Assembly: GCA_012522795.1 (NCBI GenBank)
Contig: JAAYJT010000042.1
Coordinates: 1 to 64,000 of the forward strand
Reading direction: 5' to 3'
From: Bacteroidales bacterium
GTDB lineage: Bacteria > Bacteroidota > Bacteroidia > Bacteroidales > JAAYJT01
DNA: 64,000 nt
Part shown: positions 14,614 through 28,168 of the stretch, one piece after another
How positions within the stretch are numbered: the first letter of the stretch is position 1
How the letters are laid out: each line of letters starts with the position of its first letter
Program-made: the position numbers and the translations under genes
The notes under the pieces: generated by a model
Seen by the model: the letters and a program-made list of their open reading frames with translations, nothing else
What the model was told of the DNA's origin: nothing
Database searches by the model: none

Positions 14614-17600
14614 TTATTTCATCGAAACTATTTTCTTAATAAACATTTCATTACCAATACTGATTCTGCAGAAATAAATTCCGGGTAACATATCTTCTGA
14701 TTCAACGGGCAGTTGATAATCGCCGGCTGGTTCATAAGTATCTTTCAATGATAGGATCATTTTACCCTGAGAATTGAACAATTCAATATTAACCTGTGAA
14801 TCTACCGGTAATGAATAGGATATCATTGTTGAACCTGAGAAAGGATTAGGATAAACTGCAGGTTCGTAAATTTTTGTCATTAAATTTTCATTATACTGAT
14901 ATTTAATCATCGGCACTTCTATTGCATTAACATTGGCAGCAACTACATCACCCCAGGTGAGGTCATTCAGTCTGGTCTTGAATTTCATGATGGTTTTTCT
15001 TTCTGCAGGTAGGGGCGAATTATCGAAACTAAAGATAATACAGCGCAGGCTGTTGCCAATCTCAGCACATCTGAATTCATAGCCTCTCAGAGCTATTTCC
15101 ACATCCTTCATTGTTAATCCCTGAATATCAAACTGCAATCCGGCTAAAGTACCATCATTTGCTAGATCGATTCCGTCATTATTCAGATAAATATAACCAG
15201 TTTCTGAATTCACTATTTGCGAACCATGTTTTCTTTCGCCAACAATTATACTGTTTGTACCAACAACATCCTGTACGTTGATAATATTGTCGCCGTTAAC
15301 GTCAGCATTTTCAAAACAGAAAGGAGTAGGATTCTGAAGGAGGATATAGTTGGTAGTTGTAACAATATCAAGTACACTCACAACTCCGTCGCAGTTTGAA
15401 TCGCCCAGTAGCGGCAGGCTCATACTTCCAATGAAAATATTGTCAATAAACACATTATCACCTTCATTATTGATCTTATCATGAATGCGGCAGCTTGATT
15501 GAAGTGTTATTGTGAAAGCCGTGCCTTTGAATTCAGAAAGATCAAATATCTTTTTAGAAAACGGATCAGCATTTGTGGTTGGATTAAAATCCATAACACC
15601 ATCAATATCAGCAATCTGAACAGTATCATTGATAAGAACTCTGAACCATGAGAATTTGATTCCCAAACTATAGGTTTGACGCAGATCAAATGCTAGATAT
15701 ACTTCGGGCATATTAGTGGCGTCAACATTACATATTTCGGCAAAACCATGAAAATCAACGTTTGAATTCCATGCCTGCTCTGGTGTTGTTCCTGTAGGTG
15801 TTCCTGACCAGCCAGTGAATAATCCAGCACCGGTGAAATGTAATCCGAATTCACTTTCATATGCCGAACGCCTGTCAACTTTTACAAATGCTTTTGAGTT
15901 TGAGGAAAGAATGAAATTATCTGATTCCCCGGTTTCAAAATCATCTTCAAGCGGGAGGTTTCTTCCGTCAATAGAAAAATGATCATCAAATACTACAGTG
16001 GTAGTGCCATTGGCATTAACTACGGTAACATGAACACTGTAAACACCTGGAGCAGTGAAAATAATTTCAGGATGCTGGCTTGCTGATGTGGTTCCGTTAA
16101 TGAACATATATGTTGAAGGTGTAAAGCTCCATTGCCAGCTTGTCGGATTATAAAGAGTATTATCTTCAATTGTTATTGGGTCATAAATACAACCTGCTGT
16201 TGAGCTGGCTTCAAACTGCGGATATGGAGCGGGATTATTTGTTACCACAATGAAGCCTTGTTTGGTAAGGGTTTCATTTCCGTATGCGTTTTGAGCTGTC
16301 AGGGTAACATTATATGTGCCGGGAGTGGAATAGGTGATACCTGTGGGATCTTTAACAGTTGAAGTAGCAGGTACACCTCCGTTGAATGTCCAGTTCCATG
16401 AATTGGGAACCCCTTTTGTGAGATCAGTGAAATTAATTGACTGCCCAGGTTGAATAATAGTAACGGGAGTGCTGAAATCAGGTTGTGGAGAAAAAGGAAC
16501 AGCTTTTACAGCTGCGTATGCATCAATTCTTCCGGCACCCAATTGTCCTGCCCATTGTGGGTTCAAAGCGTCAATATTAACGCAAGTAGCTTCCATAACG
16601 CTTTTAAGATCAGCATTTGTGAGGTTGGGATTAATTGATTTCATCAATCCGGCAAGTCCTGCTGCCACAGGGGTAGCCATTGAAGTACCAAAATATGAAT
16701 CGTAATAACCCATTGACGTGTTTTCAAAAACAGTGCTTAAAAGTCCCATAGGACCGGGTGAAGCATAACCACCGGGAGCACACACTGAAACGTAGGTACC
16801 CCAGTTCGAAAAGTCAGTTTTTACGTCATTATCGTTAGTTGAAACAACAGCAATAACGTGGGCATAGCCTGCAGGATATCTTATTGCATTGTCAGATTCG
16901 TTTCCTGCAGAAGCTAAAAACGAAATTCCCATGGCAGCACCTGTATTAATAATATTCTGATAGGTTTGGCTATATCCTGAACCTCCATATGACATACTTA
17001 TAACATCGGCGCCATTATTAATTGCCCAGTTTACACCCTGTTGTGAGTGAGTAATTGCTACTGCCTGATTGGAAGCTCTTACGCCAATTAAACTTGTATT
17101 ATAGCCAATTGCAGCAATTCCGAGATGATTGTTTGTTTCGCCTGCAGCAAGTCCGGCACAGTGAGTTCCATGCGACCAGTCGCCAGGATCACCAGTATTT
17201 GGAGGGTTTGAATCCGGGGTGTTGTTTACCACATTACGTTGCAAAACAACTTTATTGGTAAGATCGGGGTGATGTGACCATACTGCATTATCAACTATAG
17301 CAATTTTAATTTCAGGATCGCCTTTTGTAATTTCCCATGCCTGTTCAGCATTGATAACATCAAGATGCCATTTCCATTTATAGGGTCCGTTGACCAGATT
17401 GTAAAGGCTGTCGTTGGGCTTGAAATCGGGATAGTAGCAAGGTACTTTTTCTGCATAATCTATTTCGGGTTTTGCTTCAAGATCTGAAATTATTTTATTA
17501 AGCGCTTTATGATCGGTGAAAGTTAAAAGGAAGGTCCTTAATAACTTGATGTCATTATTGGCATCAAGGGGACGGTTAATGCTGATAAGTTCATGTTTGT

Positions 17601-17817
17601 TAAAAATATCAGCAAAATAACCAGCATCTTCCTTTTTTACTGTATAATCAGGTGCTACGGAAATTTGCGGATCATAGTCGTCGTGGAATTTAACAAAGAT
17701 TTGTCCGTCAACATAATCTTTTTCGAAATTTTGTCCGTTAGCGACATAACCTGTCAGCATTAAGGTAAAGAATAAAATAGTTATCACCTTGCTGATCAAT
17801 TTGTTAGCATTTTTCAT
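14614..17817 (-). CDS. Secreted S8 subtilisin-like protease with PKD, dockerin-like and T9SS sorting domains
   Basis: A 1067-residue extracellular protease. After a signal peptide (1-28) comes a propeptide-like region, then the S8 domain with Asp176 (IAIVDN), His216 (SHGTHCAG), oxyanion Asn306 (SAGNE) and Ser379 (GTSMATP). Two PKD domains follow (about 445-527 and 533-615), then a beta-rich module (625-800) and a dockerin-like pair of calcium loops (803-860: DSNCDGVVSVLDIV and DVNGDNIINVQDVV). A strand-rich segment (875-975) resembles a cohesin fold. The end (985-1067, YPNPFSGSTMISYSL to FIKKIVSMK) is a type A T9SS sorting signal, so the protein is exported and anchored at the cell surface. 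Confidence 0.92.
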   Translation of the reverse strand: MKNANKLISKVITILFFTLMLTGYVANGQNFEKDYVDGQIFVKFHDDYDPQISVAPDYTVKKEDAGYFADIFNKHELISINRPLDANNDIKLLRTFLLTFTDHKALNKIISDLEAKPEIDYAEKVPCYYPDFKPNDSLYNLVNGPYKWKWHLDVINAEQAWEITKGDPEIKIAIVDNAVWSHHPDLTNKVVLQRNVVNNTPDSNPPNTGDPGDWSHGTHCAGLAAGETNNHLGIAAIGYNTSLIGVRASNQAVAITHSQQGVNWAINNGADVISMSYGGSGYSQTYQNIINTGAAMGISFLASAGNESDNAIRYPAGYAHVIAVVSTNDNDVKTDFSNWGTYVSVCAPGGYASPGPMGLLSTVFENTSMGYYDSYFGTSMATPVAAGLAGLMKSINPNLTNADLKSVMEATCVNIDALNPQWAGQLGAGRIDAYAAVKAVPFSPQPDFSTPVTIIQPGQSINFTDLTKGVPNSWNWTFNGGVPATSTVKDPTGITYSTPGTYNVTLTAQNAYGNETLTKQGFIVVTNNPAPYPQFEASSTAGCIYDPITIEDNTLYNPTSWQWSFTPSTYMFINGTTSASQHPEIIFTAPGVYSVHVTVVNANGTTTVVFDDHFSIDGRNLPLEDDFETGESDNFILSSNSKAFVKVDRRSAYESEFGLHFTGAGLFTGWSGTPTGTTPEQAWNSNVDFHGFAEICNVDATNMPEVYLAFDLRQTYSLGIKFSWFRVLINDTVQIADIDGVMDFNPTTNADPFSKKIFDLSEFKGTAFTITLQSSCRIHDKINNEGDNVFIDNIFIGSMSLPLLGDSNCDGVVSVLDIVTTTNYILLQNPTPFCFENADVNGDNIINVQDVVGTNSIIVGERKHGSQIVNSETGYIYLNNDGIDLANDGTLAGLQFDIQGLTMKDVEIALRGYEFRCAEIGNSLRCIIFSFDNSPLPAERKTIMKFKTRLNDLTWGDVVAANVNAIEVPMIKYQYNENLMTKIYEPAVYPNPFSGSTMISYSLPVDSQVNIELFNSQGKMILSLKDTYEPAGDYQLPVESEDMLPGIYFCRISIGNEMFIKKIVSMK

Positions 17818-21727: not shown

Positions 21728-24664
21728 ATGAAAACTGTTTTTACTAAATCCGGGAATCTGATGAAAAAACTAAAGATTTCTCTGGTTCTATTATTTTTTA
21801 TGAGCTCATTTGCTCTCACGGCCGCCTGGTTCGACAGCCTGCCATACACTGTTACCCAACCTGATAGAAGTACAATTGAATGCTTTGTATCGGGTGATGA
21901 GTTTTTTAACTGGCTTCACGACGATGCTGGTTATACGATCATTGTAGGTGATGACGGATTTTACTATTATGGCACTGTTGAAGGTGAAATAGTTGTTCCT
22001 ACTGCCTACAGAGTTAATAGTGTAAATCCTGAAAGCATAGGTTTGCAGCCATGGGCTAAAATTTCACAAAGAGAGTATCAGAATAAAAGGGATGAGTTCT
22101 GGAAAGATGCCAACCGTTCAACCCGCGCACCTCATGCCGGAACATTGAATAATTTGGTTGTTTACATCAGATTTAACGATCAGCCAGAGTTTACGCTTCC
22201 ACGTTCAGTTTACGATGGTCGTTTTAACAATACCAATGGATCTTCATTAAAAACATATTATACTGAGGTTTCGTATGATAATTTATTGATTGACAGCCAT
22301 CATTATCCAATCTGTGACCTTTCGGTTAACCTGTCCTATCAGGATCCGCATAATAGAAGTTATTTTGAACCATATCATGCAGTCAATAATCCTGATGGTT
22401 ATAAAAACTCTTCACAACGTACCAACAGGGAGCATACTTTATTAAAAGATGCCATTGCTTTCATTCATGATGAAGTACCGCTTGACTTAGATATTGATGC
22501 CGACAACGACGGATATGTTGATAACATGTGTTTTGTAATCCGCGGAAACTCCGGTGCATGGGCTGATCTGTTATGGGCACATCGCTGGGTGCTTTATTCC
22601 TATAATGTTCATATTCATGGGAAAAAGGTATATGATTACACATTCCAGCCTGAAAATCAAAATGATGTTCAGACTCTTTGTCATGAAATGTTTCATTCTC
22701 TCGGTGCTCCTGACCTGTATCACTACACAAGTAATGGTATTGCACCTGCCGGACCGTGGGATTTAATGGAAAGTGGTTTTGGGCATATGCTTGGATATAT
22801 GAAATACAAATATGCAAACCACACATGGATCACAGAAATACCTGAAATTACGACAGCAGGAACTTATACGCTCAATCCTTTAACTTCACCCTCAAATAAT
22901 ATTTACAAAATTGCCTCGCCAAATTCGCCAACACAATTTTTTATTGTGGAATATAGAAGAAAAGTTCCAGGAACATTTGAAATGAATCTACCGGGTTCAG
23001 GACTTTTGGTTTATCGGATTGATGTAACAGTTGGTGATGGCAATGCCGATGGTCCGCCGGACGAAGTATATGTTTATCGCCCCAATGGCACTACAACAAA
23101 TAACGGCACTGTAAACCAAGCATATTTTGCTGCAAATGTTAATCGTACTGCTATCAATGACGAAACCAACCCGAGCAGCTTTTTGCAGAATGGTAGTCCG
23201 GGCGGTTTGAACATTTTCAATATTGGACAGGCAGGCGAAACAATTTCATTTGATGTTTTAATGGGCACCGAGATCATTCCTGATATTATCGCTGATGTGA
23301 CAACAGTTCCTCTTGGTGGTTCAGTTTATTTTACTGATAACTCTTCAAATAATCCTACTTCATGGTTATGGAGTTTCCCTGGTGGCAATCCGGCAACATC
23401 CACACAGCCAAATCCGACCGTTTCTTATGAAACACTGGGTATTTATGATGTAAGCCTTGAAGTTTCAAATAGTCTTGGAAGTGCTCAGATAAATCTGGAA
23501 AACTTTATCATTGTTGGCGATCCTGAAATTCAGGTTACACCTGAAGCTTTAAATATCACCCTTGCACCCAATCAAAACGGAATAGCTGATCTGAAAATTA
23601 CAAACACAGGTAATACCTGGCTGCGCTATTCATCTGAAAAAGAATTTATAAGCGCTGCTGGTGAAGTGGGAACCATACTCGGAACCTATGGAAATGTATC
23701 CTTCAGCCGTAGTGGTATCACCTGGGCTGACGGCTCATTGTATATTGTTGGGCTGAATGGCACATTAAACGTTTATGATACAGTTCAGAAACAAATTGTC
23801 AATACATTTGACATTCACGCACAACCATTTAGTATAGCCTATGACGGTGAATATCTCTGGATAGGAGAAAATAATGGGACTGTTTTCGCATATACTCTTG
23901 ATGGTGTCGCAACAGGTGCTTCTTTTCAGTTGCCTACAAGTGATATTTATTCTCTGACATGGGATGGAAATTATTTTATTGTCAATCTTATTGGATCATC
24001 AAGCCCTAATTTCTACAGAGTTGATAATCAGGGAAATATATTGCAATTATTAACTACAAGTTTTGAAGACCGCGTTACACAATTAGTTTGGGTACCTTCT
24101 CATGCCGAAGGAAATCTATGGGCGAGCTCATTGGGCAAAATACTTCATTTTGCTGAAACTGACGATGGCAGGTTTGAGGTAATTGAAGAATTCAATGCTC
24201 CTACAAGTCTTAGCTATTCTATTGGGCATGATGGCACTGACCTATGGTGGAGCGGACTTGGCAATCAGCTCTATCGTTTTGAAGACGGGGTGCAGGACTG
24301 GTTTTATTATTTAGATGACACTACCCTGATCGAAGCAAATTCGAGTGTGGAATTTCCGATTTATTTTAAAACTAAAAGTCTTGAAATAGGTGTACATAGC
24401 GGAATAATAAAACTGTATTGCAATGATCCTTTAAACCCTGTTGTGGAAATCCCTGTGAATCTCATTGTTAACTATGATGTTGTATTGCCCGGCGATTCAA
24501 ATTGCGATGGTGTTGTAAATATTAATGACCTTGTACATACAGTAAATTATATCCTGGGTATGAGCCCTATACCATTCTGCTTTGATAATGCTGATTTTAA
24601 CGGCGATGGTGCGGTGGACGCAAATGACCTTGTGTTGACAATTAACCTTATTATGGGATTATAA
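21728..24664 (+). CDS. Secreted M6-family metalloprotease with PKD and C-terminal dockerin-like domain
   Basis: A 978-residue secreted protein. Either the ATG at 21728 or the one at 21761 gives a signal peptide (ending near FALTAA). The M6 (immune-inhibitor-A-like) domain has HEMFHSLGAPD (H319, E320, H323) and the Met-turn DLMESG near 345. A PKD domain spans about 523-597, then a beta-propeller-like region (about 640-890). The last 60 residues (918-978) form a dockerin-like pair of calcium loops (DSNCDGVVNINDLV and DFNGDGAVDANDLV). There is no T9SS sorting domain after it, unlike the S8 protease nearby. It probably degrades extracellular protein. Confidence 0.9.
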   Translation: MKTVFTKSGNLMKKLKISLVLLFFMSSFALTAAWFDSLPYTVTQPDRSTIECFVSGDEFFNWLHDDAGYTIIVGDDGFYYYGTVEGEIVVPTAYRVNSVNPESIGLQPWAKISQREYQNKRDEFWKDANRSTRAPHAGTLNNLVVYIRFNDQPEFTLPRSVYDGRFNNTNGSSLKTYYTEVSYDNLLIDSHHYPICDLSVNLSYQDPHNRSYFEPYHAVNNPDGYKNSSQRTNREHTLLKDAIAFIHDEVPLDLDIDADNDGYVDNMCFVIRGNSGAWADLLWAHRWVLYSYNVHIHGKKVYDYTFQPENQNDVQTLCHEMFHSLGAPDLYHYTSNGIAPAGPWDLMESGFGHMLGYMKYKYANHTWITEIPEITTAGTYTLNPLTSPSNNIYKIASPNSPTQFFIVEYRRKVPGTFEMNLPGSGLLVYRIDVTVGDGNADGPPDEVYVYRPNGTTTNNGTVNQAYFAANVNRTAINDETNPSSFLQNGSPGGLNIFNIGQAGETISFDVLMGTEIIPDIIADVTTVPLGGSVYFTDNSSNNPTSWLWSFPGGNPATSTQPNPTVSYETLGIYDVSLEVSNSLGSAQINLENFIIVGDPEIQVTPEALNITLAPNQNGIADLKITNTGNTWLRYSSEKEFISAAGEVGTILGTYGNVSFSRSGITWADGSLYIVGLNGTLNVYDTVQKQIVNTFDIHAQPFSIAYDGEYLWIGENNGTVFAYTLDGVATGASFQLPTSDIYSLTWDGNYFIVNLIGSSSPNFYRVDNQGNILQLLTTSFEDRVTQLVWVPSHAEGNLWASSLGKILHFAETDDGRFEVIEEFNAPTSLSYSIGHDGTDLWWSGLGNQLYRFEDGVQDWFYYLDDTTLIEANSSVEFPIYFKTKSLEIGVHSGIIKLYCNDPLNPVVEIPVNLIVNYDVVLPGDSNCDGVVNINDLVHTVNYILGMSPIPFCFDNADFNGDGAVDANDLVLTINLIMGL

Positions 24665-24775: not shown

Positions 24776-25470
24776 TTAACGTAGGTTCGACATATTTTTG
24801 AATAGTGTAAGTTGCTGTGAGTAAACTTTTTCAAGCTGGATAGCTGGTTTTTTAGGAAATAAACTATAAGCAATCAATGATGAAATGAAGTTTACAATAA
24901 AATTTGTAAAGTAACGATGTCTTGAATGTTCAATTAGGTAAATGTTTTTCAGTTCATCGTTGTTAGATTCAATTATTGCTCTCTTGCGCAACGGTAGTTT
25001 ATCTTCAAAGCTAAGTAGGGAGTTTCTCATATTGCTACGGACCTTTGTTATCAGGTGTATACCACTATCAGATAAAAATTCAAACAGCTTCTGTGATATA
25101 TATCCCGGCGCCAAATAGTTTTCCTTGAACTTTATCAAGTAAACTGCTTCTTAATAGCTGTTCCCAATCATCAACGTTACCCTGGGCTATGATAAAGTCA
25201 ATAATTTCACCTTTATCGTTCACAACTAGATGAAGTTTAAAACATTAAAACCAGACCATACTCCTTTTACCCCTCTGTGCAATACCTTTGAATACCTTTG
25301 TTACACATTTTCAATGTTAATGAAGTACCTGTATAATTGCCCATACATACATATCATTTTAAGGTATGGAGTCATAGGCAACATTTCTTTTTGCATGAAT
25401 TCAACAAAACGGTTGCAGGAAACCAACTTAGGGAAGTCATTTTAAAGATGAGTTTTAATATAGAAAAGTT
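24776..25470 (-). mobile_element. Degraded IS982-family transposase
   Basis: The last 120 residues (24776-25138) keep typical IS982 text: GYISQKLFE, LITKVRSNMRNSL, DKLPLRKRAIIES and IEHSRHRYFTNFIVN. Upstream, the minus strand in shifted frames reads FPKLVSCNRFVEFMQKEMLP, then VFKGIAQRGKRSM, FKLHLVVNDKGEIIDF and IAQGNVDDW, with a TAG/TAA and at least two frame changes. The N-terminal part is weak or lost, and no clear terminal inverted repeats were found. The element is dead and marks the left side of the arsenic island. Confidence 0.8.
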
Positions 25471-27137: not shown

Positions 27138-28168
27138 ATGAACGTAAGAATGAAGTTTATTGACCGTTGTCTAACGGTTTGGTTATTTTTGGCGATGGCA
27201 CTTGGTGTGGGATTAGGTTATCTTTTCCCCCATTTTTTTCAATATGGATAAGTTTTCTGTAGGCACAACGATTGTTCTCTTATTGATAGGCTTGATTTTA
27301 ATAATGTATCCGTCATTAGCAAAGGTGGATTATTTACTTTTGCCTAAAGTATTGCAAGATAAAAAAGCAATTACCATTTCGTTAATCCTGAATTGGGTAG
27401 TTGGAACGGTTTTTATGTTTGGTTTAGTAGTTTTGTTTTAAGTAACGAGCCTGAATATATGGCTGGACTGATATTAATAGGTTTAGCAAGATGTATGGCT
27501 ATGGTCATTGTTTGGAGTGATCTAGCCAAAACCAACAGGGAATACACAACTGTATTGGTTGTCCTTAACAGCATTTTTCAAGTCGCATCCTATAGCTTTT
27601 TTGTCTGGTTATTAATCAATTTCTTGCCTAAACACCTTGGATTTAAAATAATTATGTACGCGTTTCAATGCGTAATGTTACTGAAAGCGTATTGATTTAA
27701 CTGGGGATTCCATTTATGGTAGGATTTCTCAGTCGTTATTTTTTAACCCAGAAGAAAGGTAATGATTGGTATCAAAATAGCTTTATTCGGAAAATTTCAC
27801 CAATAACATTGATAGCTCTATTGGCAACCATTGTTTTAATGTTCAGTTTAAAAGGCAGTCAAATCATTGAATTACCCTTAGAAGTGGTGAAAATTGCTAT
27901 TCCACTTATTCTTTATTTTGTTTTGATGTTTTTCATTAGTTTTCTCATCAATAAAGCACTGAAAATCCAGTACGACAAAAATGCTTCGATTGCATTTACA
28001 GCAACAGGTAATTACTCTGAATTAGCGATTGCCGTTGCAATTGCTAATTTTGGATTAAGCTCTCCACAAGCATTTGCTGCTGTGATCGGCACTTTGTTTG
28101 GAGTTCCGGTACTTATATTTTTAATGAAAGTAAGTTTGAAGTTCAATAAGAAATACTATTTGAAATGA
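27138..28168 (+). pseudogene. acr3: ACR3-type arsenite efflux pump, broken
   Basis: Ordered ACR3 homology runs through three frames. Frame one: [19 protein letters not shown] to PHFF, broken by an extra T in the T run 27233-27239. Frame two: [20 protein letters not shown] to VGTVFMFGL, broken by a missing T near 27436-27439. Back in frame one: LSNEPEYMAGLILIGLARC to NFLPKHLG, then a shift near 27655-27680. Frame three: TESVLI, a TAA at about 27693 where Tyr is usual, LGIPFMVGFLSRYF, and on to KKYYLK. The pump would have about 343 residues and ten membrane segments. Three indels and one nonsense codon mean it cannot work unless the reads are wrong. Its stop overlaps the arsC start. Confidence 0.88.

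Follow-up and report, generated by a model that had tools for sequence, protein, structure and literature searches.

The cellulosomes of clostridia and ruminococci combine a tandem-cohesin scaffold with anchors, cohesin-dockerin adaptors and enzymes that end in dockerins. Bacteroidota, for their part, possess gingipain-type surface proteases, in which C25, C10, M14, S8, M6 and peptidylarginine-deiminase(PAD)-type enzymes carry sorting tails of the type IX secretion system (T9SS). According to the accessible parts of two reports, protein-degrading cohesin-dockerin machines have already been proposed in Planctomycetes (PMC6461901) and in Cloacimonadota (PMC8542988). The first of these, the ‘Planctosome’ of freshwater Nemodlikiaceae, is presented there as a machine that handles peptides and includes M14 and M12B peptidases, and it is defined by an anchor that combines a lamin tail, P-domains and a single cohesin (PMC6461901). 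For ‘Candidatus Stygibacter’, the accessible text puts forward a cellulosome-like complex for protein, chitin and starch, whose enzymes (S8, C25, GH18, GH57) have a signal peptide and a C-terminal dockerin, and whose scaffold of 3,755 aa carries tandem cohesins, CBM2/CBM3 and a T9SS-type C-terminal domain (PMC8542988). With respect to Bacteroidota, the available part of a report on rumen Bacteroidetes states that neither cohesins nor dockerins were detected in them, consistent with other Bacteroidetes genomes (PMC5831590), and the available part of a cockroach study mentions dockerins in some Bacteroidota cells (PMC10266427). In the literature searched, with subscription journals largely outside, we found no proteolytic cohesin-dockerin complex in Bacteroidota, in agreement with the statement of an earlier note on this DNA that a complex of this kind is not usually described for the group.

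The window, i.e. the whole analysed stretch of 64,000 nucleotides, encodes an M6 metalloprotease with a C-terminal dockerin and, not far from it, an S8 protease (Table 1). We consider the M6 protease to be, probably, a plug-in subunit of a genome-wide, T9SS-anchored and peptidase-rich cohesin-dockerin complex, and the bacterium seems to build a cellulosome-like surface complex that digests protein and not cellulose. The sequence evidence that points to this reading consists of the domain content, the replacement of a tail, the abundance of both halves of the system and the gene neighbourhood in related genomes.

Table 1. Features of the M6 and S8 protease loci; positions are those of the window.
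Feature	Position	Strand	Basis or remark
S8 protease, 1067 aa: S8, two PKD, dockerin, cohesin-like X, T9SS tail	14614..17817	-	
T9SS type A sorting domain of S8 protease	14626..14856	-	
X domain of S8 protease, predicted cohesin fold	14899..15207	-	predicted structure
Dockerin of S8 protease	15265..15408	-	
M6 metalloprotease, 978 aa: signal peptide, C-terminal dockerin, no T9SS tail	21728..24664	+	ORF and profile searches
M6 catalytic domain, residues 144-430, motif HEMFHSLGAPD	22157..23017	+	TIGR03296
PKD domain of M6 protease, residues 525-589	23300..23494	+	profile match
Type I dockerin of M6 protease, with Cys pair, extreme C-terminus	24488..24652	+	
Terminator-like hairpin and T run directly 3' of M6 stop codon	24684..24735	+	folding energy, z -8.6
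DDE transposase remnant	24776-25138	-	~110 bp downstream of M6, past the hairpin

In the M6 protease, a Sec-type signal peptide is followed by the M6 domain, the PKD domain, further parts and the dockerin. Membership in the M6 family is indicated by TIGR03296 (123.6 bits, cut-off 110.8) together with the HExxH zinc motif, which reads HEMFH in this open reading frame. The dockerin matches PF00404 at residues 921-975 (33.1 bits, cut-off 22.9; E 1.8e-9 in the whole-genome dockerin scan) and has clostridial dockerins as its closest PDB sequences (6kge, E 3e-6). Only 3 residues follow the match, and neither TIGR04183 nor PF18962 matched the protein, so it lacks the C-terminal sorting domain that would mark it as T9SS cargo. 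The description in the earlier note, a protease that ends in a dockerin and has no T9SS tail, is therefore confirmed, and the same applies to its statement that no sorting signal follows: a search of the following 1.5 kb in all three forward frames gave neither a T9SS tail nor a remnant of the cohesin-like X domain. A crude script found no lipobox-like motif in the protein, and a lipoprotein route was rejected.

The M6 dockerin is one of many. The search for other dockerin and cohesin genes proposed in the earlier note returned 52 dockerins, 30 copies of a cohesin type that we term Coh-B and nine matches to the Pfam Cohesin model in the source genome (G000; 2.9 Mb, 97% complete, 100 contigs), which in profile scans also contains 86 T9SS sorting tails and the T9SS translocon SprA (2659 bits). 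The chain ends at the dockerin without a tail (3-20 residues past the match) in 32 of the 52 proteins, one of which is an 84-aa fragment ORF; 14 proteins continue to a T9SS tail and six are built otherwise. Between dockerin and tail, 13 of the 14 tailed proteins have a domain of ~100 residues, here called X. A different use of the dockerin is seen on contigs C21, C48 and C79, where it lies near the N-terminus and is followed by Fib_succ_major domains; dockerins near the N-terminus were also found among the dockerin genes of the related genome G270.

The cargo scan with Pfam or NCBIfam covered 47 of the 52 dockerin proteins, leaving out four Coh-B-dockerin adaptors and the 84-aa fragment. Fourteen of these 47 are peptidases, namely M6, C25 (four), S8 (four), M14 (three), C10 and M28, and the other cargo includes a peptidyl-arginine-deiminase-type enzyme, GH18, a PNGase F-type domain and CotH. 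No cellulase or CBM family was detected with Pfam in the 47 proteins and four Coh-B proteins, and for this reason we do not speak of a cellulosome proper. Besides, the dockerins share a cysteine pair (CDG...PFC), of which both members are present in 42 of 52 and neither in ten, but never a single one. This joint presence or absence suggests a disulfide, which likely forms between them; to our knowledge, such a bond is not usual in clostridial dockerins. Within the set, the M6 dockerin stands out by the second variable residue of the calcium loops, a position that we take to be the partner-choosing site: it is Asn in both loops, the only N/N case of 52, and Leu occupies it in both halves of 14 dockerins. 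Hence, the partner of the M6 protease may not be of the commonest Coh-B type, and the possibility that its dockerin does not bind the common Coh-B counts against the complex.

On the cohesin side, the nine matches above the Pfam cut-off lie mostly on one contig. A sub-threshold match pointed to an open frame of 1728 residues on contig C85 with 10 tandem repeats, which together with three relatives form the alignment (A2) that defines Coh-B and whose profile search gave the 30 copies. The 10 repeats of this scaffold are interspersed with CarboxypepD_reg domains; as the frame stops at the contig edge, the copy number is at least 10, and scaffold lengths in general are lower bounds because contigs break inside the repeats. 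Further bearers of Coh-B are i) a contig-edge protein with five copies (one partial) and a T9SS tail, ii) a one-cohesin protein of 390 residues with a T9SS tail, iii) smaller tailed proteins, two proteins with an internal dockerin and one solitary Coh-B, and iv) six putative adaptors of ~245 residues made up of Coh-B and dockerin, one of them interrupted by a contig end. Pfam scans of four Coh-B proteins gave Por_Secre_tail on three (the one at the start of contig C80, C80:63068 and C36). Taken as parts of a cellulosome-like system, the genome thus holds enzymes with type I dockerins (52 dockerins, that of M6 above the Pfam cut-off), a non-catalytic tandem-cohesin scaffold (the C85 frame, with the Coh-B fold taken from a model) and scaffold anchoring at the surface, the latter by sequence only, as the end of the C85 scaffold itself lies off the contig.

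The cohesin folds of the proposed complex are predicted ones. An AlphaFold2 model of Coh-B from locus L123 (Bacteroidales STD1_41; pLDDT 97.4) had cohesins as its best Foldseek matches (E 1.8e-8), with cohesin CaCohA2 as the closest (VIA Z 17.0, 129 residues, rmsd 1.8 Å), and the best 49 structure entries listed are all cohesins or cohesin-type modules. The fold comparisons served for positive matches alone, and no conclusion was drawn from families missing among the entries listed. Judged by this model, Coh-B is a divergent cohesin that mostly goes unreported by the Cohesin model of Pfam. At the sequence level, the Coh-B profile gave one weak match among PDB sequences, the scaffoldin cohesin 5n5p (E 0.019), and the profile comparison of Coh-B with X (E 2e-4, probability 46%) is suggestive only, the structure being more telling. 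Concerning the alignments, A4 comprised seven of the 13 X domains of the genome and A5 all 13 plus nine of 12 others; A6 omitted one of 18 dockerin-X rows, A7 one of 25 Coh-B rows and the dockerin profile omitted C30.

A comparison of orthologues suggests how the M6 protease acquired its present end. All three orthologues, with 72% and 67% identity in two genomes of the same genus and 48% in G003 over the searched part, finish in the T9SS sorting domain TIGR04183 above the NCBIfam cut-off, and in the two same-genus proteins similarity extends through the domain that precedes the dockerin and goes no further. In the present lineage, the dockerin appears to have replaced the ancestral T9SS tail. 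The exchange was examined for two tail-less enzymes, the second being an M14 enzyme of contig C49, which has orthologues with T9SS tails in G048, G158 and G270 and one in G003 that ends in dockerin, X and tail. Since G158, a genome of the same genus with Coh-B and dockerins, keeps the T9SS tail on its M6 protease, and G003 likewise, the exchange is no requirement of having a cohesin system and the swap of M6 is specific to the present lineage.

Among 295 sampled genomes of the order (183 genera), Coh-B occurs in 19 genomes (13 genera), including our own. Each of the 18 others has at least one dockerin, and in 17 of them a Coh-B shares its frame with a dockerin or has one no more than 1 kb away, the gaps being upper bounds from the nearest coordinates plus a sample; the exception, G158, is assembled in 280 contigs. 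Five of the genomes have exactly one dockerin, and in each it adjoins a Coh-B. Strong dockerins under a strict threshold were detected in 13 of the 19 Coh-B genomes versus 26 of the 276 without Coh-B (Fisher 8e-9). Four Coh-B-negative genomes with 5-14 strong dockerins (G094, G095, G116, G196) argue against the complex, and their dockerins are perhaps another class with another partner. Most dockerin matches listed for these four begin at profile position 8 or later.

The relatives also show a recurring pair, a large dockerin-X-tail protein followed by a Coh-B gene on the same strand; five such large proteins were scanned and comprise three S8 proteases, one M6 protease (UBA2287) and one without a peptidase match. 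X itself is present in 10 of the 18 other Coh-B genomes versus none of the 11 searched genomes without Coh-B. Regarding cargo, 12 of 16 examined dockerin proteins of G003 (another family; 38 matches in the genome) end in the dockerin, and the nine that were scanned include four C25 and two C10 peptidases, so that a peptidase-loaded cargo recurs; in G270, only three of 15 examined (19 matches) end in this way. Searched against named genomes, the Coh-B alignment A2 gave no match and the X alignment A5 gave 16 loci, all from MAGs that are mostly labelled Bacteroidales or Bacteroidetes; several of their sample names are presumably of the soda-lake type. Three of these loci, L117 and L130 (titled Thioalkalivibrio) and L119 (titled Mollicutes), have dockerin-X-T9SS-tail genes in records whose titles point to other phyla, and they are probably misbinned or mislabelled MAGs.

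As to the mechanism, we infer the binding between cohesin and dockerin, the identity of the partner cohesin and the way a tail-less enzyme crosses the outer membrane. The M6 protease would be exported by Sec and then fold, and its dockerin would clip, in a calcium-dependent manner, into a Coh-B on scaffold or anchor proteins that bear a T9SS sorting tail. By means of this tail, the partner would supply the surface retention that the M6 protease has lost. The suggestion of the earlier note that the protease may depend on a partner for its retention at the surface is probably right, and the genome does contain cohesins. Export is the weak point of this reading. Proteins known to use the T9SS require a folded C-terminal domain and are already folded on passage, as stated in the accessible part of the source (PMC9251779). 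Without a tail, the M6 protease should not be exported by the known T9SS route and could be periplasmic, which counts against the complex. Type II secretion was rejected as an exit, because no secretin (PF00263) was found in the genome. The tail-less enzymes would either leave the cell by another route before docking, or meet a tailed partner in the periplasm and be carried out with it. In the latter case, which is conceivable but which we hold to be rather doubtful, they would be bound by the Coh-B or X domains of periplasmic T9SS cargo and leave in a folded state through SprA on the sorting tail of the partner, the dockerin being export pass and anchor at once. If true, type IX secretion would have a piggyback mode, evolution having swapped a sorting tail for a dockerin.

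A dockerin that binds nothing, and merely stabilises a periplasmic or released protein by calcium binding, would be compatible with an M6 protease without tail and lipobox in a genome without secretin, and with the dockerin-like domains in some genomes that lack Coh-B. This is improbable, since dockerin and Coh-B genes are neighbours in 17 of the 18 relatives, since the domain sits where the same-genus orthologues bear a surface-anchoring tail and since it is common to dozens of otherwise unrelated secreted proteins. Still less probable, and in fact rejected, is a truncation of a gene that formerly ended in dockerin, X and T9SS tail as in the S8 protease. Although this ending is common in the genome (13 of 52) and a transposase remnant lies close downstream, a strong terminator-like hairpin with a T run (within ~20 bases of the stop codon; -35.7 kcal/mol, z -8.6) separates the two and argues for an intact gene end, the downstream frames hold no remnant of X or tail, 31 other proteins have the same ending with up to 20 residues past the dockerin match, and the M6 orthologues finish in a plain tail. 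The consensus terminator scan did not list the hairpin, probably because its loop exceeds the limit of the scan.

The earlier note had further pointed to the similar dockerins of M6 and S8 protease and proposed that the two, only 4 kb apart, could form a small proteolytic complex. The shared text is real, however it is not specific: PxPFCF occurs in 35 and NCDG in 33 of the 52 dockerins (DSNCDGVV in four), among 51 dockerins ranked by similarity to that of M6, the S8 one comes only 12th (55% identity), and in the opposite direction the M6 dockerin comes 31st of 51. Because this likeness runs through the whole genome, a private pair was rejected as the main reading. In addition, the two genes are 4 kb apart but divergently oriented, the space between them being taken up by an HD-domain gene and, as named by eye, genes of the histidine-degradation type, and together with dockerins that are not closest relatives this speaks against a two-protein complex. 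Nevertheless, the S8 protease, as far as its predicted structure tells, combines a dockerin with a cohesin-like domain and a sorting tail, and this cohesin-like domain makes direct docking of the M6 protease on X, between the S8 dockerin and the T9SS tail, possible. In a structural model of the S8 dockerin and X (pLDDT 93, pTM 0.88), residues 1-63 align with a dockerin (Z 11.1 and rmsd 1.8 over 63 residues), and the matches of residues 71-179 are cohesins (Z 11.6 and rmsd 2.4 over 106 residues; about 100-106 residues and Z up to 11.6 over the comparisons). With its own tail the S8 protease could hold the M6 protease at the surface, and the genes are close. We nonetheless regard such docking as unlikely: the genome has 13 X domains, among which that of S8 is not special, unrelated genes separate the two divergent protease genes, and the M6 and S8 dockerins are not a matched pair. 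Moreover, X directly follows the dockerin in the complete genes fetched, and this adjacency and the pTM of the two-domain model suggest that X packs on its own dockerin, so that the cohesin-like domain of S8 may already be occupied. For the genome-wide complex, the 30 Coh-B cohesins elsewhere are better candidate partners of the M6 protease than S8.

The complex proposed here resembles that of Stygibacter, as far as the accessible description goes, in its dockerin-terminal enzymes, tandem-cohesin scaffold and T9SS-type tail. It differs in belonging to another phylum, in the CBM2/CBM3 of the Stygibacter scaffold, in divergent cohesins mostly missed by the Pfam Cohesin model, and in the presence of dockerin-cohesin-tail enzymes, Coh-B-dockerin adaptors and an exchange of tail and dockerin among orthologues. 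The Planctosome is likewise a proposed cohesin-dockerin machine with peptidases, but it has a single-cohesin lamin-tail anchor and few subunits, and the accessible part of its description does not mention T9SS. Clostridial and ruminococcal cellulosomes share scaffold, anchors, adaptors and enzyme-end dockerins with the system described here, which in contrast shows no cellulase in the 47 of 52 proteins scanned, a peptidase cargo and anchoring by T9SS tails in a Gram-negative envelope. Compared with gingipain-type proteases, many such enzymes here bear a dockerin, either in addition to the tail or in its place. The findings would extend cellulosome-type assembly to an order of Bacteroidota, with divergent cohesins, a peptidase load and type IX attachment. 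The natural exchange of tail and dockerin among same-genus orthologues opens two questions to testing, namely the way out of the cell for tail-less enzymes and the ability of cohesin-dockerin docking to substitute for a sorting tail.

Elsewhere in the window, two adjacent frames on the plus strand (27393-28168) each match part of one SBF-family transporter and adjoin ArsR-like, arsenite-methyltransferase-like and arsenate-reductase-like genes (names by eye); they are probably an interrupted Acr3-type arsenite exporter.
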